From Botryosphaeria dothidea (Eukaryota > Ascomycota > Dothideomycetes > Botryosphaeriales > Botryosphaeriaceae): a stretch of 64,000 nt of DNA. Each line of letters starts with the position of its first letter. The stretch's first letter is position 1. The DNA is taken from NCBI GenBank assembly GCA_011503125.2, contig WWBZ02000010.1, positions 682,001-746,000 on the forward strand, read 5' to 3'. This document shows positions 32,044 to 61,164 of this stretch, one piece after another. Under the pieces are notes generated by a model. That model did not search any database. It saw only the letters and a list, made by a program, of their open reading frames with translations, and was not told the DNA's origin. Position numbers and translations under genes: made by a program.

Positions 32044-33934
32044 TTAACCGCTCTTGGCCACTGACATATATGCAGCGAAGGCTTTTCAACAGCATCCCCA
32101 TGGCAAATCTATAAACTCCCCTCCCATAGCGCGGGCAGCTGCATGTCCCGACACTCTTCCATCGCCTTCTTTGTTAGGGCCAGCCGTACTCCGACCTGCT
32201 ACATCAACCCAAGCTACTCATAGTCTCGGACAATGCGGGCAGAGATACGAAAGTACGGACGTGTTGGAAGCTCATTCTCCCATCGGGCAGCTCAGGATGA
32301 CGCTCGAAGAACGGATAGTGAAGGGACCGGCAATGGTGTGTCGATTGCGGGTGGCAACCGAGTAGGTTATCCACTGTGCAGATGCTATCTTCGAAGAAAT
32401 CAACTCGAAGGAGGAGCTCGATAAGAGCTTAGCTCGGGCTCTCAGTACGAGCCCACTCTATAAAGGAAAGCCACCTCTGAATGTCGAATGGTAGGACTTT
32501 TAGAAGAAACGATTCTCCGAGATCGGTAGAAATTTGGGCGAATTGGAGGTTGATAGTGCCATGGCTAGGCGGAGCATGGACGCTGTAGGGCAGTATGCGC
32601 ATGACGAATAGAGGCTTTGTGTATCAATTTGATTGTTTGGTGGTCTTTTTATGAGTATCACGGAACCAACGGAGAGGGAAGACATAGATCTTGGAGCCTT
32701 ATACTAAAGGAGTTATATCGTAGCTCTGCTTCGGCGCTTTCTATAGACTAGTACATCCTAGTAACGTCGTTTAGACCGCGGAATTTCTAGTTAGTAGCTA
32801 TGCCGTAATCCTCTTAGCTAGCTTCGTAACGAAAATATCATTTAGTATAATCGACTATTTAATATAACACGGAATATCTACTACTAGAACCATAGACGTA
32901 GACTATAATAAGATGCTACTACTGCCGTTCGGAAACCTTCCGTTCGACTACTATATTATAGTTAGGCTTGTTATATTAATATTAATTAGTCTAAGCAGCC
33001 GACCAACCCAGCACCACTAGGATATATAATCGACCCTATCTAAATCTAAATAAAAAGAAAAGCTTCTTAAATACTTTATCCGCTTAGACAACTATAGGCG
33101 TAAGGTTTATCGTTAGCCCCTTAACTTCCTCCCTATATATACCCGCTTATACTCGCTTTACTCTACCGCCCTAGCCGTACTACGCCGCGAACCTCTCGTA
33201 GGACGGCAGTAGCATTCTAGAGGGCATCCCGCTAGACCTTTCTTCGCCACGCGATCGCCAGCTCGATGCATAGCTTAAACGCGTATCCTGGATTAGCACG
33301 TGGTACGGAGACGGCAGCGGAGCGGGCAAAGCTATAGTAGATGCCGGCTATAAGCGGCTGCGGGATCTTAGTTTTAAGGACTATAAGGATAGCCCGTTTA
33401 TTTCTAAGCCGCACATCTTTGACGACGCTGCGGTATTTAATTTTCCGGATACTGTCGTTAGGCCCGGAGAAGTGCCGCCGTTCCTTATGAAAGCTTTCAG
33501 CCACTTCCCGAACAACCTCGACGGAGAGGGGGCAAGGCCGTAGAATGGGTACAGGATTTTTCCTAGTATGCGGAAGATCGAAGAACTCCAGGATAGGCCA
33601 TCATCTCAATGCCATCAAAGGCCACACCAAAGCGACATGATCCAGGAAGCTGCACGTGTAGTTTGCGTGACAGCACTCAGCAGGCCCCTAATATACGGCA
33701 TAGATCCATGCATTTTGCGCCGCCCCCACATAGCTGCCTTTTACCTCAATGCCTACCCGTAGTTAACTAAGCTATTTCGAGGAGGTGGGAAGGAAGCGTA
33801 CCTGCGCACCACGTGGGATCTGTTTCGAGTGGCTAATCTTGTCTGACAATTTCGCTCGCATTTCAGACCCCATACGCAGATAAAGGCCCGCCGATCTCTT
33901 GGCAGAATGTAATCTTGCCGGTCTTTAATACTAT
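32044..33934. other. Gene-poor stretch with unrecognised relics
   Basis: A plus-strand patchwork at 32230-32700 (EEINSKEELDKSLARALST between stops) and a minus-strand open piece at 33504-33232 (90 residues, AESFHKERRHFSGPNDS) look like remains of coding sequence but match no family I know. 32700-33050 is very TA-rich and probably RIP-mutated. Confidence 0.4.
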
Positions 33935-34173
33935 TGTCAGACTTTCTTGCCTTACTACCTCAGGCATCTCAGTTATCTCGAATATTCTATCCTTTATACA
34001 ACAACACTCTTTGATGCCCAACCCCACATCGGCACTCTCTCTCGGATCTTTAGTATCCTCGGTTATGTAGTTATCACTCATGTATATAAGCAAGCCTACC
34101 GACCTCCCTCTCAGGAGACAGGCAGAATCTACTCTCTTTTCTGACCTCACACTCTTCACTCTTAAATCCAACA
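33935..34173 (-). repeat. 3' LTR of the minus-strand copia relic
   Basis: 239 bp, reading TGTTGG...CTGACA on the minus strand. Near-identical relatives are at 35193-35442 and 39243-39482. Confidence 0.75.
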
Positions 34174-35192
34174 ATACTTTACAATTTGGGTTGCTTACAA
34201 AGTCCAATTTGATTAACAAAACGTTGAAACTTCAATTTAGATAACGGTTTAGTGAGCACGTCGGCAATTATATGCTCAGTTAGGACGTAGTTCAATTTGA
34301 TCTTCTCCTTTTCAACTTGCTGGCGAATAAAGTGATACTAAGTCTCAATATGTTTGATCCTAGAGTTGTCTTTGCGGTCAGGTCGAGTGAGACTGATTGC
34401 TAGTTAATTATCGCCATTCATTTAGATTGGTGATAAGTCAGATCTATGATATCCGAGTTCATTGAGGAGATTCTTGATCCAGAGAGCTTCCTTTGCAGCG
34501 AGGGTCATTACCACGTATTCAGCTTTAGTAGATAATATAGCCACATTACTTTACTTAGTTGATTTGAACGAGATAGGTCCTCCGGCAGCTAGAAATACGT
34601 ATCCTTAAGTACTAACCCGATTCTCCTTATTATTAGCATAAGCAGCATCACTAAATCCCTAAAGATTCAGCTAATCATCTTTAGAGGCTTAGAATTTGAT
34701 TGAAAGATCTAGTTTGCCCTTTAAATATCTGAGAATCCGGTAGGCTGCATTCAGATGAGATTCTAAGGGGTTATAAGTAAACTAACAGAGCTTATGGGTT
34801 GCGTAAGTAATATCAGCTCGTGTCATGTTCGCCGCGTATCTAATTAATCCGATAAGGGATTAATATTTATTAATCATTTTGATTGGGGCTTGTCCTTTAG
34901 CTCTCGGTGCGAGCGAAGCTCCAGATTATTCCATTGGTGTTGATATTGGCTTGCAATTCTCCATGTGGTGCCTGGATAGGATCCTCTAAATGTAGGATTC
35001 TTGACTGATCCACATTGTCTTGTTTAGACGATCTCTAACGATCCTTATTCCGAGACAATAATAAATTGGTCCTAAATCTCGTAGTTCGTATTTGGCTGAT
35101 AGTTGACTTCTTATAAGGTCAACGATATCCTTGTCCTTGTGAACAAGGATCAAGTCATCCACGTAGATAACGATGATTCCCTTATGCTAAGC
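34174..35192 (-). mobile_element. Copia RT/RNase H relic
   Basis: The minus strand matches the 3' third of the copia element at 1-3.96 kb (RT YVDD region near 35165 down to the RNase H end near 34215), with many stops. It runs into the LTR at 33935-34173 and is cut at 35192 by another LTR of the same family. Confidence 0.8.
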
Positions 35193-35442
35193 TGTTGGAT
35201 TTTCGAGTGAAGAGTGTGAGGTCAGAAAAGAGAGTAGATTCTGCCTATCTCCTGAGAGGGAGGTCGTTAGGCTTACTTATATACATAAAAGAGTGTTTGA
35301 ATAACCGAGGAGAACAGAAGCCGATGTTGATATCCGAAGCTTATGAATATGAGGAGTAGTGAGGAGGTGGCAAAGAGTAGCTACTGATCTTGATGCCCGA
35401 AAGAATGTGATGCCTGATATAGTAGGGCAAAATAGTCTGACA
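35193..35442 (+). repeat. LTR, same family as 33935-34173
   Basis: Starts TGTTGGATTTT and ends AGTCTGACA. No matching target-site duplication. Its start coincides with a CCAACA word of the copia pol gene on the other strand, so the junction may be recombinational. Confidence 0.7.
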
Positions 35443-36070
35443 CAATCCAACAGTATCCATATCCTATCTTTAGTTGGTAAAAGGCGGAGGCTACTTCTCG
35501 CCTATATAGAGGGGGTTTTAGCTTCCGTTTAACTTGGTAGCCATATAGTTCCTTATAGGTAGAGATTGGGGTGTTTTTAAGCTTCTTTTCCCACTCCTTA
35601 TAAAGCTCTTCCTTTAGTTGCATTCCGTAGAAAGCTAAGCTACTTTTAGAGCTTGATGGGGGTAGTCTAGTAGCTTCTTTTGCAAGTTTATCCGCAGTCT
35701 CATTTCCAAGGACATTCGTGTGACCTGGTGTCCATTCGAGAGAGATTTTGTTCCCTTATCCTGTAGGATTTTTGCTGCTTTTACTGCCCGGATTTGTTGG
35801 TCTTGGCCAGGAGTATTAGCTAGGGTTTATAGCCGTAAGAGTGCGGCCTGGTTATCCGCATAGATTCTTATTTCTCGGTTTTTATATCCCCCCTTACTAG
35901 CAAAGTCAAGGGCATTTATAATACCTTCTATTTCGCCGTTGTAAAGGAGGTAGTTAGGACCGTAGTTCCTAACTAGTTCTTGTTGTATTGAGTCTCGAGA
36001 TTGGCTAAGGTCTAGTATACTCTTTGCCCTAGGTATTGTATCAAGGCTTATATGCGTATCAAGGCGCCGA
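35443..36070 (-). mobile_element. LINE RNase H relic, left flank of the viperin island
   Basis: Minus-strand frames read RNase H (YNGEIEGIINALDFASKGG, RIYADNQAALLRL) and the following KELYGYQVKRKLKPPL segment. It is the same LINE region as the better-preserved plus-strand copy at 40.95-42.36 kb. Confidence 0.75.
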
Positions 36071-36169
36071 CCTTTGGTTCTATCCTCCCCGTGAAATCTT
36101 GAGCGAGTGACGCACCCGCGCGAACGCGAGGCGGTGCCGCAATAGCGATGATTTCACTTCCCACGCCCT

Positions 36170-36982
36170 TCACACGAGAAAATGCGCTCCTGTACTTCCT
36201 TCAACGACAATTTTCTGCCACAGCTCACTTTCCTCAAGCCTTTTCGTCAACGTACTAACGTTCTCCTCCTTCGTTCCATTTGCATTAACCTACATTCGTT
36301 AGTATATTACTCTCTCCATGTAGGTTATTTGGTACCCACGTGAATCAAAATGCCACGCTGCCGATACACTTCCTCAACCGTCATAGTCTCCACCTCATAT
36401 TCGGCGAAACGCCTCTCGAACTTCTCCTTGCTGTCATTGCTATCGCGCGCTCGAGCTAGATATCTCGCCTCCGCATTTTGCATGGTAACCCCGAAAGATA
36501 GTACAATGTCCGGTTTTGCATTTGTTCTCGCTCCACCGTCATTGCTCGGAGAAAGTGGCAACTCGTCCTGGAATGGCCATGTGTTGAAGGATTCTAGTTG
36601 CTCTGTGCATCGCGGAAATCCATCGACTAGAATGCCTTTGGATTTTGGTTCATCTCGGTAAATAGCGTTCTTGACCGCCTGGAAAATAAATGGATTCAAA
36701 TCATCAGAAGTAAGGAATCCTTGGTTGTCGAGCTTTTCTTTGATTTGGGCCGCGAGTAGTGTGGTATAATTTTCACGCATCCAACTGCGGAGGCTATCGC
36801 CGACAGAGTAATGCGTTAGGTTGTATGTTTGCGCGAGGTAAGTACAGAGTGTTCCTTTTCCGGCGCCAGGTGCTCCTGGAAATCAATTAGAGCTGGGTCA
36901 AGATAGACTAGAGGGTCTAATTACACGTACCAAGAACGAAAATGACCGCAAAGCTGCGTGAAGTGGGGTTAGTAGTCTCCAT
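36170..36982 (-). CDS. UMP/CMP (adenylate) kinase-family protein, three exons, divergent from viperin
   Basis: Exons are 36982-36931, 36875-36340 and 36289-36170, giving 235 residues. Intron 1 (36930-36876) is GTACGT...CAG; intron 2 (36339-36290) is GTGGGT...TAG with a perfect TACTAAC branch site. The start ATG 36982 gives METTNPTSRS before the first strand. Residues 18-26 are the P-loop GAPGAGKGT. Residues 102-106 are DGFPR, the adenylate/UMP-CMP kinase signature. An ARDSNDSKEKFERRF segment (160-174) fits the Arg-rich lid of the short UMP/CMP-type enzymes, with no long zinc lid. The family moves phosphate from ATP to nucleoside monophosphates. It reads away from viperin across 578 bp, so a shared promoter is likely and it may supply viperin's nucleotide substrate (inference). 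Adenylate kinase specificity is the main alternative. Confidence 0.85.
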
Positions 36983-37560
36983 AGAGCTGGTCGGCCTTGA
37001 GGTCAATGATACTCAGATGGAGTTTGATAGCTTTAGCGTAAGTGGTGCCAAGGGAAAGAAAGATGAGGCAGTAGCGATAGCTTTTATCATGGTACTATCA
37101 AATGAAGCGAAAGTTCGATATTATTGTTTTTGTTGAGGATACAGCTCCTGTTGCATGGACCGAAGTCCCTCTAGCCGATCGTCTGTCGAGAACCGAACAG
37201 ACGAGTGGAAGCGTTCCTTAAAGAGGACTAGTGTAGCACGTGACCCACAAGTATATCTTCTATGGCCACGTTAGGTAGAAAGAATCGAACATCTTTCCAT
37301 AAGCTATCTCTATACTGCTGCTATCGCAACAGTTTTAGACGCGAACTACGAATGACGGAGCGCGAGCGCCAGATCTCGTATCCGGTCTGGGATTGCCACA
37401 GACACGTGTACGTACCTGATCCAATCAAACATTAAGTATTTCTAAGTGGCCACGTCAGTGACGATCACCGACTTTCCCATATTCCTTCCTTTGTTGAAGA
37501 CACCGAGTCTGCACCTAGTGTTTACATCTTTTTCAACAAATACTAGGGGTGTACCTGGTC
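36983..37560. promoter_or_regulatory. Shared divergent promoter of kinase and viperin
   Basis: 578 bp between the two start codons, with no credible coding region on either strand. No known regulatory motif was identified with confidence. Confidence 0.5.
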
Positions 37561-38619
37561 ATGGCTATTATTTCTCTTCTGGCGAACGTACCGGCTGCCC
37601 TATGTCTCCTAGTCATTGTCCTCTACGCCGTTTTCACGTCCATCGGAATTAAGATACACTTTAAACCTAACGCCATCAATAAGCCACCTGAGGACCCATC
37701 AAAAGGACCGGACGCCCCAATTTCCGTGAACTACTTCCCATCTCGAAAATGCAACTACACATGCGGCTTCTGTTTCCACACTGAGACCTCGTCTTACGTC
37801 CTTCCTATCGATAAGGCGAAACGTGGTCTGCGGCTGCTGAAAGAGGCCGGCATGCGGAAGCTCAACATTGCGGGAGGAGAACCGTTCCTTTACCCTCACT
37901 TCCTCATAGAAATACTCCGCTATTGCAAGGAGGAGCTACGCGTCGAGAGTACGAGCATTGTGAGCAACGGCAGCAAGATCAGAGAAAAGTGGCTGCGAGA
38001 AAACTGTCAGTGGTTGGATATTCTGGCCGTGTCTTGCGACTCGTTCAATCCGGAGACGAATAAAAGGATTGGGCGTGGCGACGATGGAGGGAATGTGATT
38101 CGGCTGTTTCGCATTGCGGAGTGGTGCAGGAAGTACCGAATCAAGTTCAAGTTGAATACCGTCGTTAACACGCACAACTGGGACGAAGACATGGTCGCCA
38201 ATATTGAACAGCTGGCACCATTTCGATGGAAAGTATTCCAGTGTCTCATAGTGGCCGGCGAGAATGATGATGAGACGAGAAAGCGAGACGCAAGGACCTT
38301 CCTGGTGACTGATGAACAATGGCAAACGTTCTGCAGCCGGCATAAACATATTCCGTGCTATGTCCCGGAGGATAACAAGTCTATGGCGAGCAGTTACCTG
38401 CTTCTAGATGAGTACATGTGTTTCCTAGACAAGGGAGAAGGTTTGATGAGAAAGAGCGAGTCGATTTTGCAAGTAGGCGTCAAGAAGGCTATGAAGCAGG
38501 TTGTTTGGGACAAAAAATCGTTTGTTGAACGAGGTGGGGTTTACGACTGGGGCAGATCGGACATGCTGCAGCCGAGTGTGTGTAGTGGTGGTGATAGTAG
38601 GAAAGAGCTGGAATGGTGA
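37561..38619 (+). CDS. RSAD2-like: Viperin-like radical SAM enzyme (RSAD2 family), intact
   Basis: 352 residues from ATG 37561; an in-frame GTG four codons earlier is not a likely fungal start. Residues 3-30 form a hydrophobic helix that would anchor the protein to a membrane, as in animal viperin. C64, C68 and C71 form the CNYTCGFC cluster that binds the [4Fe-4S] cluster. Also visible are FPSRKCNY just before it, GGEP at 106-109, IVSNGS at 134-139, LAVSCDSF at 156-163, FKLNTVVN and RWKVFQCL further on, and a final Trp, which animal viperin uses to receive its cluster. Viperin converts CTP to ddhCTP, a chain-terminating nucleotide; fungal and prokaryotic members can use other nucleotides. No introns. 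Substrate is inferred, family is certain. Confidence 0.96.
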   Translation: MAIISLLANVPAALCLLVIVLYAVFTSIGIKIHFKPNAINKPPEDPSKGPDAPISVNYFPSRKCNYTCGFCFHTETSSYVLPIDKAKRGLRLLKEAGMRKLNIAGGEPFLYPHFLIEILRYCKEELRVESTSIVSNGSKIREKWLRENCQWLDILAVSCDSFNPETNKRIGRGDDGGNVIRLFRIAEWCRKYRIKFKLNTVVNTHNWDEDMVANIEQLAPFRWKVFQCLIVAGENDDETRKRDARTFLVTDEQWQTFCSRHKHIPCYVPEDNKSMASSYLLLDEYMCFLDKGEGLMRKSESILQVGVKKAMKQVVWDKKSFVERGGVYDWGRSDMLQPSVCSGGDSRKELEW

Positions 38620-39242
38620 TCGGAAATCTCCATCAGGCTGGGGAAGACCAGGATTTGACATTGCCAGCTGGCTTTATGTGAGGTAGCAAGATGTAGAGAT
38701 TAGGATTGCTTATCTATGGATCAAATGCAAGTCGTGTCATTCTGATTAGTTTCAGACGGGTTGATTGGAAATGCAGAAACGACGACGCCAACTTGTCTCG
38801 CCGAGTCAAGGTCTACTGAGGGAGACGGACTCGAAGAATCCCTTGATGGTGGGTGGCCATGAGAGCCCCAAATGGGAACCGGTCCGGGAAACCGTTGAAG
38901 GATAGCTTGGTTGTTCTCCTAATGAATGGTGCTGACTATAGATATCTTACATTATAATCGAAGCAAACAGAAGGCTTAAACTAAATAACGTAGTTGTCAA
39001 CCAGAATCCCCTTATTTCTCAGGCAGCACTTGTCGTTCTGTTTATTAGTTACTACAATCTCTCGAAGATTCTACCGGAGAGGAAGAGGGCATAAATTTGC
39101 CACTGTTCCTGCCCAATACCCTCGGATATCACTTCCTCGGATACACTCATTTCCTCGGTTATACTAGTTCAGGTCTATGTATTTAAGGACATTCATTTTC
39201 CTTCACTAGGAAGGACAGGCAGAAGCATACAGTCAGAAATTC
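38620..39242. other. Spacer downstream of viperin with LTR-type repeat
   Basis: No gene. From about 39100 to 39242 lies a repeat (CTCGGATAC, CTCATTTCCTCGG, ATGTATTTAAGG) whose inverted relative is at 25420-25560, so transposon remains reach close to the viperin 3' side. Confidence 0.55.
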
Positions 39243-39482
39243 TGTTGGATTTGAGAGTGAAGAGTTGTGAGGTCAGAAAAGAGAGTAGATTCTGCCTGTC
39301 TCCTGAGAGGGAGGTCGGTAGGCTTGCTTATATACATGAGTGATAACTACATAACCGAGGATACTAAAGATCCGAGAGAGAGTGCCGATGTGGGGTTGGG
39401 CATCAAAGAGTGTTGTTATATAAAGGATGGAATGTTCGAGATAAATGAGATGCCTAAAGTAGTAAGGCAAGAAAGTCTGACA
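39243..39482 (+). repeat. Solo LTR at the 3' end of the PNP gene
   Basis: 240 bp, TGTTGGATTT...GTCTGACA, same family as 33935-34173 and 35193-35442. It ends four bases before the stop codon of the PNP gene (39489-39487). No perfect duplication was found (GAAAT before, GAAAC after, two bases offset). Confidence 0.75.
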
Positions 39483-39486
39483 GAAA

Positions 39487-40536
39487 CTAACGCTCTTTCA
39501 AAGTCTTCTCGATTGGTGAGGCTCTTTCAACGTCCTCACCGTCCATGACTTCAAGTAATTCCTTTGCGAAAGCAGCCGCCGTAGCAGCCGCATAGTTTTG
39601 CCACTGATCACTCTTATGCTCGTCTGCGTAGTCGCATACTCCTCTTATAACGAGACAAGGGAAGTTATTCAACAGACCAGCTGCTTCCATCTCGAAACAG
39701 ATGCACTTATCATCTAGGCTCTGCAAGATCTCATCTCTAGAAACGCCGTCGTTTATGACAGAATTGCCAGATACGATGATGCCGTAGTGTATCATAGGGT
39801 TGGTAGACTTTCGGTTCTTTCGCTTCAACTCTTTGGGAGGAATGAAGCTTGTAAGAGCTGCATCTCCGTCACTGGCTGGATTATGGTGAATAGAGGGCGC
39901 CTCGAATAGCCGGTTACTATGTACCCCCTGATATACGAAGCCGGTAGCGCCACCCATCCCTGGTTCTCCCATTTTAGGATAGCGTCGGATCATCGCTTCT
40001 AAAATCTTAGGCACTCGAGACTCTTCCATAAGGTGGTTTGCCTTTAGACTTGCTAAGCCTTTGAGGAGAACCTCCGGTAGTGCATCAAGAGAGCCAACAC
40101 GTTCGACTTTGCCGCGGCTTCTTATCTTTCCGAGATCGTATTGGACGACTCCGGGACTCGTGCCAGTAGGCTGGCTTACGACAATGTCTCTAAGGCGGAT
40201 GTCGATGTTCTCTTCCAGCCTAGGGATCCCTGCTCCAATGCCGACCATAAGGCCGAATCTGAGGTGTTGGAGAGAGCTGATCATACTACAAGCGGTTGTC
40301 GCTGCGGATACTGTGCCATACCTTCCCGCGGCCAGCGAGGCGATGACGATATTGTGTTCTCCGATGCTACCCCAAGCGTAGTTATTATTGTCCTTAGGAC
40401 GCTTCTTGAAGCCTTCTGGCTTCTGATGTTTTTCGTCGAGTATAGCTTTTGCTCTGGCAAGTTCTTTGTCGAGAGCGACGATCCACCCGACGGTATACAT
40501 CTGAGGGTTCGAAAGGCGATTTGAAGGTGCCATCAT
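39487..40536 (-). CDS. Purine nucleoside phosphorylase (PNP_UDP) domain protein
   Basis: An intact 349-residue frame. Typical of the fungal PNP family: start region LSNPQMYTVGWIVAL (9-22), YGTVSAATTA (73-82), VGIGAGIP (98-105), ISGNSVIND-type loop (VSGNSVINDG, 255-264), CFEMEAAGL (280-288, the nucleoside-binding Glu-Met-Glu), and RGVCDYADEHK (298-308, the base-contacting Asp). The family cleaves the N-glycosidic bond of nucleosides. In fungi this domain is often the N-terminal part of NACHT/NB-ARC immune receptors; here it stops about 40 residues after the domain, right where an LTR lies, so it may be a stand-alone enzyme or the surviving part of a larger receptor. The first ATG is followed at once by a second. 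It converges with viperin across about 870 bp. Confidence 0.88.
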   Translation of the reverse strand: MMAPSNRLSNPQMYTVGWIVALDKELARAKAILDEKHQKPEGFKKRPKDNNNYAWGSIGEHNIVIASLAAGRYGTVSAATTACSMISSLQHLRFGLMVGIGAGIPRLEENIDIRLRDIVVSQPTGTSPGVVQYDLGKIRSRGKVERVGSLDALPEVLLKGLASLKANHLMEESRVPKILEAMIRRYPKMGEPGMGGATGFVYQGVHSNRLFEAPSIHHNPASDGDAALTSFIPPKELKRKNRKSTNPMIHYGIIVSGNSVINDGVSRDEILQSLDDKCICFEMEAAGLLNNFPCLVIRGVCDYADEHKSDQWQNYAAATAAAFAKELLEVMDGEDVERASPIEKTLKER

Positions 40537-40947
40537 GAATATGGGAGCTGGTCGAAGACGAGGTTGCGTCGGAAGAACAAAGAGGGATGATCTTACCGGA
40601 TGTAAGTAGTGGGAGTCGAGTTAAAGAAATAGTAAGCTGAATACGCTTGGAGAAGGAGCTAAAGAGCCTGAAAAGCTCTTCGCTGACCAGATTAGAAGTG
40701 TGGCTCAACGCCCAAACAGTGTGGATATGCAAGCCACCTGGTCAGCGGTAGTTGTGGAACAGCTGCACGTTTACGCTTCTAGTCGCATGGCCGCGTTAGC
40801 TTATGGTGCTGCCTCGAATCCTGGCCAAGTTGCAAGTAATGATGGTAGAGAGATCTCCAAATGCTTTAATTTTAATTGCAGGGGAGGGAAGTACAGCTCG
40901 ATTATATCGGGTAGGCTTTATACTTGTAACTAATAAGATTTCATAGT
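40537..40947. promoter_or_regulatory. Upstream region of the PNP gene
   Basis: About 410 bp up to the inserted LINE. No coding region is convincing. It should include the PNP promoter; no motif was recognised. Confidence 0.4.
40931..40947. repeat. Left target-site duplication of the LINE fragment
   Basis: TAATAAGATTTCATAGT, matched at 42360-42376 by TAATAAGATTTCATGGT (one difference). Confidence 0.8.
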
Positions 40948-42359
40948 ATGCGTTTAGAATAAGACAGCTTAAAAAGGAACATCCAATCCGCTACGAAATA
41001 GAGAGAGAATCCAACCGAAATATAGGAGGTATACCTCCTACACAGGTAGAAAGAATAAGGAGAATATACTCTAAAATCCCTAAGGAGATAGAAGAGGTAG
41101 ACCCCTTTCTTTTTAAACCATGGAGCGGTAGTCCCCCCTATTCGGTTAGGATATCTACTCTAGAGAAGGAAGCCGAAGCTAAAGCACACGCTAAGGCCCT
41201 CCTAGAAGCCCCAAATAGTTAAGTATCTATATATTCCGACGCCTCACAACTTCCAACAGGAAAAGGGATAGGAATAGGAATAGGAATACTAGACCTTAGC
41301 CAATCTCGAGATACTATACAACAAGAACTAGTTAGAAACTACGGTCCTAACTACCTCGTTTATAATGGCGAACTAGAAGGTATTATAAATGCCCTTGAAT
41401 TTGCTAGTAAACGAGGATATAAAAACCGAGAAATAAGAGTCTATGCGGATAACTAGGCCGCACTCTTACGGCTATAAACCCTAGCTAATACTCCTGGCTA
41501 AGATCAACAAATCCGGGTAGTTAAAGCAGCAAAAATCCTACAGGATAAGGGGAACAAAATCTCTCTAGAATGGGCACCTAGATATAAAGATATCCTTGGA
41601 AACGAGGCCGCGGATAAACTCGCAAAAGAAGCTACTAGACTACCTATATCAAGCTCTAAAAATAGCCTAGCCTTCTATAGAATGCAGCTAAAGGAGGAGC
41701 TTTATAAGGAGTAGACAAAGAAGCTTAAAAATACCCCAGCCTCTACCTACAAGGAACTATACGGCTATTAAGTTAAACGGAAACTAAAACCCCCTCTAAA
41801 GGAGCGGGAATTAGCCTCCGCCTTTTACCAACTAAAGATAGGACACGGATACTTTAGATCCTATCTCTTTAGGTTTAAACACGCCGGAACCGATAGGTGC
41901 CCTTGCACGAACACAGCAAAACAAACACCTAGACATCTTTTACTAAAATGCCTAAAATACTCCTACGAAAGAAGGAGTATTAAGGATATACTTAGAAGAG
42001 AACATCTAGACCTAAAGGAGCTTCTTACCTCGATAAAAGGAATATCTAGTACGCTAGAGTTTCTAAAATAAACACAGATATCTACACGGAGGTAGTATCT
42101 AGAAACTAGCTCGGCGGAGCTCTAAATAAACGTATACCTACCGTACTTCCTTTTACTTTCCTTATATACTTCCTCTTTACTTCCTTTGGCTACAAGCCTA
42201 TTTAGGCGATAGACGCTATACCGTTCACTGTACCTAAAAAGCCCACCTTTACCAAAAGAGGTATTACCCTTCCATAGCCACGAGTTCTAGAAACTCCGTC
42301 TTTAATAGTCTTAGGCTGAAAAAAGGACGTAAAACTAAATAAATAAATAAATAAATAAA
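40948..42359 (+). mobile_element. 5'-truncated LINE, RNase H part, right flank of the island
   Basis: The plus strand reads an RNase H domain (SIYSDASQLPTGKGIG near 41228, LVYNGELEGIINALEFA near 41358, EIRVYADN near 41431, APRYKDILGNEAADKLAKEA near 41577), a QLKEELYKE segment and a C-terminal cysteine motif (CPCTNTAKQTPRHLLLKC near 41900). About five stops break it. It ends in an (AAAT)n tail (42335-42359). The 17-bp duplications on both sides show a target-primed insertion. Confidence 0.85.
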
Positions 42360-56039: not shown

Positions 56040-58267
56040 TCAACCTATACACCACTGCTGTTGGAAATCCAGCATGGGGCAGCGCGCAAATAGATACTCA
56101 TCAAATTCCTTGTTGCACTCCTCCGAAAACATAGAGAAGTTGTGCTCCCAGCTCTCCTCGGGTTCCTGCACAAGCGACACATTGCACCAATATTCGACGT
56201 GGAGACACTCGCCGTCGCCGGTGTCTTGGCCCTCGACAAGTATTCCGCGGATCTCCGTCTGCGTACCATCCGGTAGACGGTGCAGCACCAGCATCAGCAC
56301 TCGCTTCGTGTCTATCTGCCGATCAGGCGACGCGCTGTCCCCGTCCACGTCGACTCGCTGTAACTGGAAACACGACCTTTCGGCTTCATCAACGAGCATC
56401 AAACATTGTGCGACAACGGGCGAATGCGGCACCGTGAGTCGCATCCCCGGATACGTGACGTACAAACCCCGCTGGTCGAAATACGCGGGCATGGATTCGC
56501 TGTCCATGACGGCGTAGTCGTACGGCTGGCTGGCCATGAAGGAGGCGGGGGCCCAGCGACGGCCGGGGCGGTCGAGGCGCGGGCCGCTCGCGAAGACGAT
56601 GCCGGGCGGGAAGAGCTGCTGCAGGTCGAGGAAGGCGTCCATGCGGCGGTCCGGGGGCGCGGCGACGCAGATGAGCTCGTCGGCTCTGCGGCTGGTGGCG
56701 CGCCACTGCAGCGCGGCCCAGACGTGCGCGACACGCTCGGCGCCGTCGGTGCGCCGCAGCCGCCGCATCAGCAGGTGGAAGTTGACCACCTCGGCGCCGA
56801 CAATGTGCCACAGCGCGCGCGCCGGGTCGCGGACGTGCTGCAGGACCCAGACGCCGACCTCGCACGCGCCGTCCGCGCACTGGAAGTACAGCCGCTTGGC
56901 GAGCACGCCCTCCTGGAAGGTCCACAGCCGGCGCAGCCACGCGCAGCAGGTGATCTTGATCATGTGCTCCTCGTACCGCTTCTCGGAGAAGGGCTCCGTC
57001 CACGTGAGGTCGCGCACTTGGCGGTCCAGGACGAGCACGCGCGTGGCTGCCGTGTAGGTTTGCGCCATCAGCTTGATGGCTTTGCCGCGGTGCGGCTGCT
57101 GCAGCGGCACGCACACGGTGTCGATCCAGAAGTGCAGCCGGCCGTTGTGCAGGTGCGCGCCCTTGCCCGTCGTGTCGTACATGCAGTCGCGCACCTTGGC
57201 TCGCAGGTAGATCATCTGGCAGCGCGGGAGGCTGTTGTGGTGGGGGTTGCCGAGCCCGTCGGCCCAGACGTGGGAGATTGCCAGGTAAGGGATTTCGGGC
57301 AAGGCCTCCACGACTTCGACGTCTGGTTCATCCAGCGGTTGCACCGGCGGTGCCACGGATATTATCGGGTAGCCTCCACCATCAATGATGGCGCGAGCTT
57401 TGACCATGGGGAATGCAACGCTCTCGCAAGTCCCGTCACAGAAGTCTTTCTGGTGCTGGGTGATGTACGTTCTCTCATCGACGTTGTCGACCAAGCACTG
57501 CTGCTCGCTACATCTTGAATGATCTTTGCGATGCTCCAGCGCATCTGTCCGGTACGCATAATACATAGTTGCTGGCGATAACGTCTGCTGAAGCATGGCG
57601 ACCTGGTTGGGGCAGCAGCCTTGGGCAAGCAGCCGGTCTCGCAGCAAAGAACTCTTGCTCAGAAGGAGGATCGAATCGGGCTGCTCTGCCACGTCCGCAT
57701 AGATATTCTTCCGCGTGTAGTCCAACGTGCAGCCGAGTACCAGTATGGATAGCATGATAGACTCGTCCACCTGGAAAGGGAAACCCCGTCTAGTGCTCAT
57801 AAAACTGAGGCGTGAGACGTAGTTAGCGCTCTCGTACAGAATACGCCGGACAGCAGAGTTCTGTGCTTCTGATTCTTCCTTGGTAACTTGTTCTTTCGCC
57901 GATCTCCACTCGTGCATGTATTGAGGGAGGGAAGAGGTAGAGACCCAACGGCAGCTGTCTTTTTCCTGAACAAAGTCTTCGTATCGTATCGTACCGAAAC
58001 GCGCGAAGCGTCGAGGACGTAATAAAGAACCCCGAAGAAGAGCCATTCTTGTAAGAACGACACCGCCTCATCGCTGGTCTTGCCGTCGAGTTCTCCAACT
58101 AGCAGCATCTCGACATCCCAACCCACTTGCTCCGGAAAGCGGCTGAAAGCGTCTGATGCGGCCTCAGCAGTCCTTGCTCCGACCTTGATACGAGATGCTA
58201 TAATGCATTTGAGGGGTACATCGATTGCAGGATTGCCGCCGGCGAGAGGCGAAAAGATATGATCCAT
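56040..58267 (-). pseudogene. HET-domain protein, one 5-bp frameshift, otherwise complete
   Basis: The start at 58267 (MDHIFSPLAGG) aligns with the start of the divergent paralogue at 58726. The first about 90 residues are in one frame (FLQEWLFFGVLYYVLDA). At 57981-57995 the plus strand has three GTATC-like 5-mers; past them the rest reads in another frame (EDFVQEKD onward, 668 open residues from 58046 to 56040). An extra repeat unit of 5 bp explains the shift. Downstream come LPQYMHEWR, a CxxN-like Cys region, the HET core YLAISHVWADGLGN and LPRCQ near 57272, WIDTVCVP, TRVLVLD, AWLRRLWTFQEGVL, and a final QQQWCIG. HET proteins act in the cytoplasm in allorecognition. It may be a phase-off allele. 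Confidence 0.85.
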
Positions 58268-58725: not shown

Positions 58726-61164
58726 ATGGATCATTTGCCCTGCTTCCAAGAATCCAATTACGTGCCCATCAAAGTCCCCTTTCTTTCTGAAACGCCTTAT
58801 AGATGTCGCAAGTTCTGGTCCGAGTCGTTCAACGTGCTACGTTCCGGTGATGCTTTTGAGAGCGAGATCACCGCCCGCTCGATGCGACTGTTGCAAGACT
58901 GGCTTTTCTTTGGCATCCTCGACGAATTTCTTGAGGGCCTAAACCCGACCGACTTCGTGCGAGACGCAGCGGGCGGACCCTGTATAACGACGGAAAAATT
59001 ACCTCAGTATCTTGACAAATGGAGGAGAACGACAATGGCTAAGCTGAAATCGCAGGATGCGGGCACAGCAAGAGCGACAATGAGGAGTAACACCAAGTGC
59101 CTGGAAGAGGCGACTCATTTCATTCTGCTGCACAACACCAAGCTCGAAAATGCCGCCTCGCCGGCGCCTGAAGTATGGCTGTCTGTCAAGGCACTTGGCC
59201 AAACACTCACAACGCAGCTGTTGTCTCACATGGACTGGTTGGGTGTCATGACTTTGGGTGGCACGTTTCTGTCCTTCCCTCCAAGCTCCGTGCTGAATAC
59301 GCGTCTGCTGGCCGCGGGCTGGTGCCCGAGTGACGTTGCAAGATCTCCTTCCCTTTCAAGCTCATTCTTCGCCTTGAGCATGAGCATGCAGGGACGACGC
59401 AGGACCCATTCAACATGCTCGGAGACGGCGTGCAATGCCGACCAGATTGACGAATCCAATTACGCAACGAAACACGTGCGGGAGGGTTGTCGTTGCCAAT
59501 TCGTGGGACCGTCGAGAGACGCGATTGTTTCCTTGTTGGAGAAGGAAGAGATTCCCGTATTGACTCTGCCCGGCGAGCTAAAAGATGGGGACGAACACTC
59601 GGCCGACATCAAGTTGGACGTCATTCCGGCAAGGGCTTCGCGCGGATTCGTAGCAATGTCGCACGTATGGTCAGACGGCCTCGGAAACACGGAGGAAAAC
59701 GAACTGCCCCTGTGCCAACTGAAGCGCATTTACCGTCTATCCAGTCAAGTGCTCGCCGGACACGGAATGATTGACGGCCCAGTGCATATTTGGATGGACA
59801 CGCTGTGCGTTCCAGTTAGGGACGAGGACAAGCACTACCGGAAACTGGCAATCACCAGCATGGCAAAGACGTACGAATCGGCCGCCTTTGTTTTGGCCAT
59901 CGACTCAGGCCTCGTTCAGGCATCCAGGCTAGACCGGCTGGAGGAGCTGTTGCTCAGAATTCGATACAGCGGCTGGATGCGTCGGCTGTGGACTCTTCAA
60001 GAAGCAGTTCTTCCGGAAAAAGGGTGTCTTTTGCAGCTCAGAGACGGCTACATCAACCTTCATCAGCTTTGCGGCGAGCTATACAGCCGGATGGGCGATA
60101 CCTTTGAGCACATTTGCTCGTGGCCGCACATGCGCACCTTCGAGATAATACTCTTCCACTGGGCCCATTTCGAGTGTTTTTGGAAAGGATCCATCTACCG
60201 GAAGCGTGCGAAGCCCGAGGCAGGCGAGATGCACCGGCGGATGCTCGACGCCAACTACCACGGCATCGTCAAGCTGGCCAGCTGCGGTGAGATTCCGGCG
60301 CAGAAGCTGCGGTCCACGTGGAACGCCATTGTCGGCCGGCGCACCAGCAAGCCGGCAGACGAGCCCGTCGTGCTCGCAGGCCTCTTGTACCTCGAGGACG
60401 AGGTCCAGCAGATTCTCGAGCTCCCACTAGTGGAGAAATGGAAGCTAATCTTCTCACACGCGTACTACGTCCTAAAGCTCCCGCAGGAAATCATCTTCCA
60501 CTCGGGCCCGCGGCCGAGCGAGGACGGGTGGCGCTGGATCACGCTCTCAATCACGGAGACGTCGTCGCGCCTCTTCTCGTGGAAGACCGGCTCCCGGCGC
60601 ACCGCGGACGAGGGCTGGCCAGGCCTCATGGTGTACTTTTTCGGCCTTGACCTGGGCCGTGCCGAGGCCTTTTTCGCCTCCGGTTTCTTCTCTGAAGACG
60701 CCACCGTCGCGTTGCGCCTCCAGGGCGGGCAAAATGGCATATGGTACCATTGCAAGCGCCAGTCTTGGAAATACCCAGCAGCTGGCACCAAGGCACTGGA
60801 TGACACGGACGGCCGCAAAACGGCAGTCACTGATGTCTTGCTCGAAGCTGACACGGGCTCGCGTTACGCGCTGATATTGCAGCAGCGAGAGCCGCTGGAC
60901 AATGAGAGCGGTGGCTACGACTTTGGTCATGCCATTTTGGTATCTTTCGTTGACGACCACGTGGCTGGCGAAACACGTAACGTCAGGTATGTTTGCAACG
61001 TTCGCATCGTCATGGCGGATGGCTCTGCCGCGGCACAGTACGAGAAAATTGCCAACCGTAGCGCGCGCGCTATAGACCAGTCGGCGGTGCTGGGCAATGC
61101 AGAGTCGGTGTTCTGGCAGTTAGGCCAGCTGATAGATGAGGAGGAAGAGTGGTGTGTGGGATAA
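58726..61164 (+). CDS. HET-domain (heterokaryon incompatibility) protein, intact
   Basis: An uninterrupted 812-residue frame. The N-terminal about 290 residues are family-specific (LLQDWLFFGILDEFLEG, KLPQYLDKWR, GWCPSDVARS, a Cys-rich TCSETACNADQIDE segment). The HET domain begins near residue 305 with FVAMSHVWSDGLGN and LPLCQL, then HIWMDTLCVPV near 360, RKLAITSMAKTYESAAFVLAID, and GWMRRLWTLQEAVL near 420. The C-terminal half has HSGPRPSEDGWRWI and ends EEEEWCVG, the same ending as the divergent neighbour. HET domains are TIR-like folds whose activation kills mixed cells after fusion of unlike strains. Its head-to-head partner is out of frame and a third copy is broken, so this is the only apparently functional member here. 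ATG 58726 aligns with the partner's start. Confidence 0.92.
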   Translation: MDHLPCFQESNYVPIKVPFLSETPYRCRKFWSESFNVLRSGDAFESEITARSMRLLQDWLFFGILDEFLEGLNPTDFVRDAAGGPCITTEKLPQYLDKWRRTTMAKLKSQDAGTARATMRSNTKCLEEATHFILLHNTKLENAASPAPEVWLSVKALGQTLTTQLLSHMDWLGVMTLGGTFLSFPPSSVLNTRLLAAGWCPSDVARSPSLSSSFFALSMSMQGRRRTHSTCSETACNADQIDESNYATKHVREGCRCQFVGPSRDAIVSLLEKEEIPVLTLPGELKDGDEHSADIKLDVIPARASRGFVAMSHVWSDGLGNTEENELPLCQLKRIYRLSSQVLAGHGMIDGPVHIWMDTLCVPVRDEDKHYRKLAITSMAKTYESAAFVLAIDSGLVQASRLDRLEELLLRIRYSGWMRRLWTLQEAVLPEKGCLLQLRDGYINLHQLCGELYSRMGDTFEHICSWPHMRTFEIILFHWAHFECFWKGSIYRKRAKPEAGEMHRRMLDANYHGIVKLASCGEIPAQKLRSTWNAIVGRRTSKPADEPVVLAGLLYLEDEVQQILELPLVEKWKLIFSHAYYVLKLPQEIIFHSGPRPSEDGWRWITLSITETSSRLFSWKTGSRRTADEGWPGLMVYFFGLDLGRAEAFFASGFFSEDATVALRLQGGQNGIWYHCKRQSWKYPAAGTKALDDTDGRKTAVTDVLLEADTGSRYALILQQREPLDNESGGYDFGHAILVSFVDDHVAGETRNVRYVCNVRIVMADGSAAAQYEKIANRSARAIDQSAVLGNAESVFWQLGQLIDEEEEWCVG

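Follow-up and report, generated by a model that had tools for sequence, protein, structure and literature searches.

In this study, we describe a viperin gene and a kinase gene that diverge from a shared 578 bp in Botryosphaeria dothidea, a dothideomycete, within a 64,000-nucleotide stretch of assembly GCA_011503125.2 (contig WWBZ02000010.1, positions 682,001 to 746,000; hereafter, the window). With a probability of about 0.7, we read them as a two-gene cassette of filamentous ascomycetes, presumably antiviral, that combines a predicted membrane-anchored viperin with a dedicated nucleoside-monophosphate kinase. The evidence that kinase and viperin form a conserved genetic unit is strong; their pairing is far beyond chance, while that with a neighboring gene for a PNP-domain protein is not. 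Viperins convert cytidine triphosphate (CTP; in some cases UTP or GTP) to ddh-nucleotides, i.e., 3'-deoxy-3',4'-didehydro nucleotides (PMC10732462, PMC11249213).

The viperin and kinase genes of the window

The window viperin passes NCBIfam NF038283 (248 bits; cut-off 180) and carries a radical S-adenosylmethionine (SAM) domain (PF04055, 69.5 bits), with both the CxxxCxxC motif and GGEP present in its translation. Its C-terminal tail reads ...ELEW, with Trp as the last residue, as the viperin family expects. Its best match is a B. dothidea protein (P0001) with 99% identity. A hydrophobic N-terminal helix predicted at about residues 12-33 matches the membrane-associating helix of animal viperins and suggests that the fungal enzyme is likewise membrane-anchored. 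Sequence and fold comparisons both gave only viperins as the closest solved structures, and the best-matching of these include two of Trichoderma virens with CTP and SAM bound; relative to the T. virens viperin-like enzymes 1 and 2 (PDB 7n7i/9dgw and 9dfn), the window viperin differs by having the predicted membrane helix.

The kinase gene encodes a product of 235 amino acids in three exons; of its introns (both GT-AG; 55 and 50 bp), the first splits the codon of the first P-loop Gly, and the same intron site is present in a second kinase-viperin pair of the genome (C6b, below). The P-loop, NMP-binding (nucleoside monophosphate-binding) Arg, and LID Arg/Asp of the adenylate/UMP-CMP kinase family (PF00406) are all present, and the kinase motifs are invariant or nearly so across 24 fungal homologues. 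Specificity profiles gave 71.6 bits for TIGR01359 (cut-off 207.6) and 87.7 bits for TIGR01351 adk (cut-off 168). A structural model for P0121, the homologue from Daldinia (predicted local distance difference test score 89), agrees as well with UMP/CMP kinase as with yeast uridylate kinase or adenylate kinases. The thymidylate-kinase-like family PF02223 was absent from the kinase at E<=0.01 in the Pfam search, where the matches were PF00406, AAA_17, and AAA_18, and the score against the TIGR00041 dTMP kinase model was weak (17.6 bits; cut-off 83). Overall, these results confirm an earlier reading made from the letters of the window (the sequence-only reading), which had reported an intact viperin with CNYTCGFC, GGEP, and a final Trp at this position and, divergent to it, an intact UMP/CMP-kinase-like gene; our three-exon model ends at 36170, where that reading had placed the end of the gene.

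Recurrence of the pair within the genome

We searched the 51.7-Mb assembly, in which the window corresponds to C6:682001-746000, and recovered four viperin matches: that of the window (C6a) and those of three further loci (C12, C6b, and C6c). The kinase search returned five matches, one lying divergently beside each of the four viperins and the fifth at C12:4292255, whereas the sequence-only reading had named single-copy status as one of two options; with four viperin matches, four viperin-side kinases, and 29 PNP matches in the genome, that suggestion was wrong. Its proposal that kinase and viperin form a unit is borne out, in that a divergent PF00406 kinase adjoins 4/4 viperins of the genome. 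Ten exon matches to PF00406 grouped into seven loci, a count that is a lower bound, and four of the seven are the viperin-side kinases; the chance of finding a kinase beside one given viperin is about 7e-4. The C6b kinase is readable through three exons in a model of our own, and the C6c pair is a duplicate of the C6b pair, with a 12.2-kb alignment connecting both loci. Near the C6b pair, an open frame resembling a P-loop kinase (AAA_28, PF13521) is also present at C6:389439-390143 on the minus strand, separated from the viperin-side kinase there by approximately 2 kb.

The window and the C12 copy, for which 20 kb of the C12 region was compared, are homologous over the pair alone. The homology comprises two alignments (36098-37078, 80%; 37373-38668, 86%) and continues for 72 bp after the stop codon of the kinase and for 49 bp after that of the viperin, with the PNP gene outside; no further significant homology was found over window positions 33001-42000 under permissive settings. 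Transposon-like ends of the cassette were considered and rejected, the longest direct or inverted word common to the ends being 6 bp.

The stretch between the two start codons probably serves as a shared promoter region for kinase and viperin, and the 31-bp block conserved within it is a possible regulatory site common to both genes. On the minus strand, this block includes TGACGTGG, which resembles a bZIP site. The start codons of the C6b pair are 1263 bp apart, versus 578 in the window, and ACGTCA was not found in the C6b intergenic stretch.

The viperin copies also vary at the position following the VNY motif, which is Phe59 in the window viperin and His in the C6b copy. Among the best 120 viperin matches, 16 of which escaped the pattern used, the residues after VNY are Phe-Pro in 96, His-Phe in 7, and His-Ala in 1. 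T. virens enzyme 2 is represented in the PDB by Phe40 and by an engineered F40H, with CTP-bound structures for both. The Phe/His split mirrors the two T. virens viperin-like enzymes, and both fungal subtypes occur within this one genome.

The pair in other fungi

To extend the comparison beyond B. dothidea, the best 120 of 1419 viperin matches were set against the best 120 of 252 kinase matches, and a viperin and a kinase were counted as a pair if they had the same longest contig, with one contig per homologue cluster. On this basis, 39 viperin homologues paired with 39 kinase homologues. Thirty of these pairs are named, representing 18 genera, and both members derive from one species each time. 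Where locus tags could be compared (11 pairs), they differ by exactly 1 in 11/11, indicating immediate neighbors; two separate tag-adjacent pairs were found in Arthrobotrys conoides (Orbiliomycetes), and in 7 further pairs the shared contig is shorter than 16 kb. The kinase part of the check that the sequence-only reading had put forward, recurrence of the gene beside other fungal viperins, is thereby strongly supported. The 81 of 120 viperins that lack a matched kinase are no evidence of absence, since both lists stop at the best 120 and give one contig per cluster; the method misses even the pair of the window.

Trees of both proteins were built from 32 named pairs, leaving out nine unnamed pairs and the long C6b row, and Xylariales fall among Botryosphaeriales in them. 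In tests of class monophyly, made after the first tree had been viewed and with taxonomic groups (fungal classes) assigned by genus and checked for four species, Sordariomycetes were rejected as a clade by the approximately unbiased test (p-AU 0.004 for viperin, 0.002 for kinase), as were Dothideomycetes (p-AU 0.001 and 0.0005, respectively). In path length, the window viperin is 0.14 from Monosporascus but 0.30 and 0.37, respectively, from Diplodia and Lasiodiplodia, which belong to its own family; the window kinase is 0.15 from one Monosporascus and 0.27 and 0.33 from the others, compared with 0.26 from Diplodia and 0.30 from Lasiodiplodia. Distances among viperins and among kinases are correlated (mirror-tree r 0.86), and 0/2000 permutations reached as high a value.

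Taken together, the mirrored trees and the rejected class clades suggest that joint horizontal transfer of the pair explains the trees best; we rank duplication with differential loss, which could also produce such trees, below it. A broader proposal, to which we give somewhat less than an even chance, is that filamentous ascomycetes carry the pair as an immune cassette of approximately 2.5 kb that spreads horizontally, moving as a unit between Dothideomycetes and Sordariomycetes. It would integrate at unrelated positions and increase in copy number, with copies being eliminated by repeat-induced point mutation (RIP) and other point mutation. Under this proposal, recruitment of the kinase would be independent of, and functionally convergent on, RSAD2-CMPK2 of animals, and the two subtypes with Phe or His after VNY may differ in substrate.

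Selection and decay of the copies

Comparison of the window with C12 gave a nonsynonymous divergence (dN) of 0.053 and a synonymous divergence (dS) of 0.37 for the viperin, and a dN of 0.10 and dS of 0.53 for exon 2 of the kinase. Therefore, both genes were long under purifying selection, though the C12 copy of the viperin is no longer intact. The deposited model of this F-type viperin (GTA08_BOTSDO02308; P0022) omits the stretch that bears the stop.

RIP usually strikes both copies of a duplicate. A segmental duplication connects C6:384379-396599 with a copy near C6:1009000-1021200; one copy is RIPped, and the other is untouched and holds an intact viperin-kinase pair. The 12.2-kb alignment of C6b and C6c features 1501 C>T or G>A changes versus 10 in the reverse direction and 8 transversions, and the RIP substrate indices of the C6c copies are 0.06 and 0.01. 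Thus, RIP destroyed this duplicate of the pair and spared the other. Within the window, only 3/64 one-kb bins are RIP-like (product >=1.15 and substrate <=0.75). The sequence-only reading's statement that most of the surrounding sequence is RIP-mutated therefore fails, and we rejected RIP as evidence for selection on the window genes, the window being hardly RIPped.

What the kinase may contribute

PF00406 kinases act on monophosphates, converting a nucleoside monophosphate to the diphosphate, and supply of the viperin substrate would for this reason be the simplest link between the two genes. In the scheme that we propose, the kinase would phosphorylate CMP and/or UMP, and a general nucleoside-diphosphate kinase would then make the triphosphate. 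Using SAM and a 4Fe-4S cluster, the viperin would dehydrate the triphosphate to a 3'-deoxy-3',4'-didehydro nucleotide, which may in turn terminate mycovirus RNA synthesis.

An alternative role, the return of ddh-monophosphates to the pool, fits the kinase equally well. Here, the enzyme would act in salvage or protection, rephosphorylating ddh-nucleoside monophosphates from RNA or from degraded pools such that the terminator stays active. Because PF00406 kinases work on monophosphates, and because conserved divergent pairing of an intact kinase with an intact viperin agrees with any function in which both act on one nucleotide, the observations accommodate salvage; they are, however, equally compatible with substrate supply, and we consider the salvage role unlikely.

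Substrate supply and salvage both presume that the genes work together. Alternatively, they may be linked without a common function, either by a shared divergent promoter or through joint spread on a mobile stretch, which would agree with homology between copies being confined to the pair and with patchy trees that cross fungal classes. We regard this explanation as less probable still. Among the old pairings of the genome, identity is 55-58% between viperins and 32% between kinases, and the arrangement has persisted across that divergence; both genes are under constraint; and the cassette ends lack repeats. In addition, nucleotide kinases also adjoin animal and some bacterial viperins (PMC11249213), and we observed this in 2/16 prokaryotic loci examined.

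Several points nonetheless weigh against a two-gene antiviral cassette. First, the window viperin scores 394 bits for TIGR04278, below that model's own stricter cut-off of 450. Second, the four pairings in the genome amount to at most three, and perhaps two, old pairings, because C6c duplicates C6b and the C6a and C12 viperins are possibly sisters (support 94/85, not starred). Third, the other 21 fungal pairs show contig sharing alone. Finally, critical forks near the window in the trees are without strong support.

The neighboring PNP gene

The sequence-only reading had joined a third gene, encoding a PNP domain (PF01048), to the kinase and viperin. This gene lies tail-to-tail with the viperin at a distance of 874 bp and, as that reading had held, looks whole, because P0245 and P0252, its homologues from Diplodia, differ little from it in length (353 amino acids) and in their end (...IEQTIKER). 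That it might be a NOD-like receptor (NLR) truncated by a repeat of approximately 240 bp was rejected, since the homologues share its length and end and the element begins past the stop codon. Copies of the element are located at 33935-34173, 35192-35311 (partial), and 39243-39482, the last of which begins just past the PNP stop codon.

In a three-gene module, the kinase would supply substrate, the viperin would make the terminator, and the PNP protein would remove nucleosides or, as an ATP nucleosidase, kill the infected compartment. The proximity of an intact PNP gene is in keeping with such a module. PNP_UDP domains are also frequent in fungal NLRs and are known from bacteria as immune ATP nucleosidases (PMC10197012); furthermore, the window includes two HET genes, and immunity genes may thus be concentrated in this region. 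Nevertheless, the other three viperins have their closest PNP matches at distances of 26.5, 190, and 219 kb, leaving 0/3 of these loci with a match within 26 kb; the block of homology to C12 stops before the PNP gene; and the tail-to-tail orientation of PNP and viperin does not favor a module. When PNP matches were scattered at random on C6 and C12, at least one viperin had a PNP match within 2.5 kb in 7% of draws, so a single PNP neighbor among four viperins would arise by chance about that often. For the best 120 of 4645 PNP homologues, the number on the same contig as a listed viperin homologue is 0, although the method also misses the viperin-PNP neighborhood of the window itself; this zero shows that there is no common pattern, and single cases may exist. 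Thus, the three-gene module is not borne out by the neighbor check that the sequence-only reading had itself set, and we judge it very improbable.

The PNP gene is probably just a neighbor, and its family is a common one among fungal NLR proteins. Fungal PNP_UDP-domain proteins, in which the domain is an NLR effector domain, belong to the same family, but the window gene stands alone, without NACHT or repeats. The HET-domain genes are divergent from each other (56043-58067, minus strand; 58726-61161, plus strand) and approximately 16 kb from the PNP gene. Coordinates of all features are listed in Table 1.

Table 1. Features of the kinase-viperin locus and of the other viperin copies in the genome; positions without a contig prefix refer to the window.
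Feature	Position	Strand	Remarks
Kinase exon 3, including stop codon	36170-36289	-	splice model; C-terminus NANGTKEEN...FLV like homologues
Kinase exon 2	36340-36875	-	PF00406 76.7 bits; P-loop GAPGAGKG, DGFPRC-EQ, R-x-RD-x-ND
Kinase exon 1	36931-36982	-	splice model, METTNPTSRSFAVIFVL...; start codon begins at 36982
Kinase-viperin intergenic stretch, start codon to start codon, 578 bp	36983-37560		gene models
31-bp block inside diverged intergenic stretch	37432-37462	+	identical in C12 copy; contains CCACGTCA (TGACGTGG on other strand)
Viperin, 352 amino acids, intronless	37561-38619	+	single open frame; CNYTCGFC, GGEP, final Trp
Extent of homology to C12 copy	36098-38668		both genes and parts of intergenic stretch, nothing else
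PNP-domain gene, 349 amino acids	39487-40536	-	PF01048 30.1 bits; neighbor judged outside the unit
C12 viperin	C12:1804200-1805255		88% identity to window, one stop, third cluster Cys -> Tyr
C6b viperin	C6:393924		58% identity, open frame
C6c viperin	C6:1018607		46% identity, 16 stops

Relation to known viperin systems

Vertebrate RSAD2 (viperin) and CMPK2 likewise represent a viperin with a linked nucleotide kinase. CMPK2 belongs to the thymidylate-kinase-like family, whereas the fungal kinase is of the PF00406 ADK/UMP-CMP-like type; because the two kinases belong to different families, the fungal pairing looks independently recruited. The same arrangement, a viperin beside a nucleotide kinase gene, is known from prokaryotic viperins with linked kinases, and one report gives an adjoining nucleotide kinase gene for about 15% of bacterial viperin genes (PMC11249213). 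Our own prokaryotic scan returned 31 loci, of which the 16 with long matches were examined (L041-L055, L060), some with short flanks. Two of the 16 feature a PF02223 (thymidylate-kinase-like) neighbor. The fungal kinase profile matched 0/16, though some flanks are short and such loci may exist elsewhere; on these examined loci, a prokaryotic origin of the kinase partner was rejected, and loci elsewhere may differ.

No description of a fungal viperin-kinase pair was found in the literature searched, which did not include Shomar et al. 2024. Viperin-kinase linkage in general is not new: that study (Nat Ecol Evol) reportedly found eukaryotic viperins to be genetically linked with nucleotide kinases, and the fungal case may already be included there.

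Viperin is among the few antiviral enzymes common to bacteria, archaea, and animals, and its conserved kinase partner points to a two-enzyme pathway in fungi, the coupling of viperin and kinase having arisen with different kinase families. The B. dothidea genome offers natural intact, point-mutated, and RIP-killed copies for asking whether viperin limits mycoviruses. If true, passage of both genes together from one fungal class to another would be a eukaryotic counterpart of the mobile defense cassettes of bacteria.

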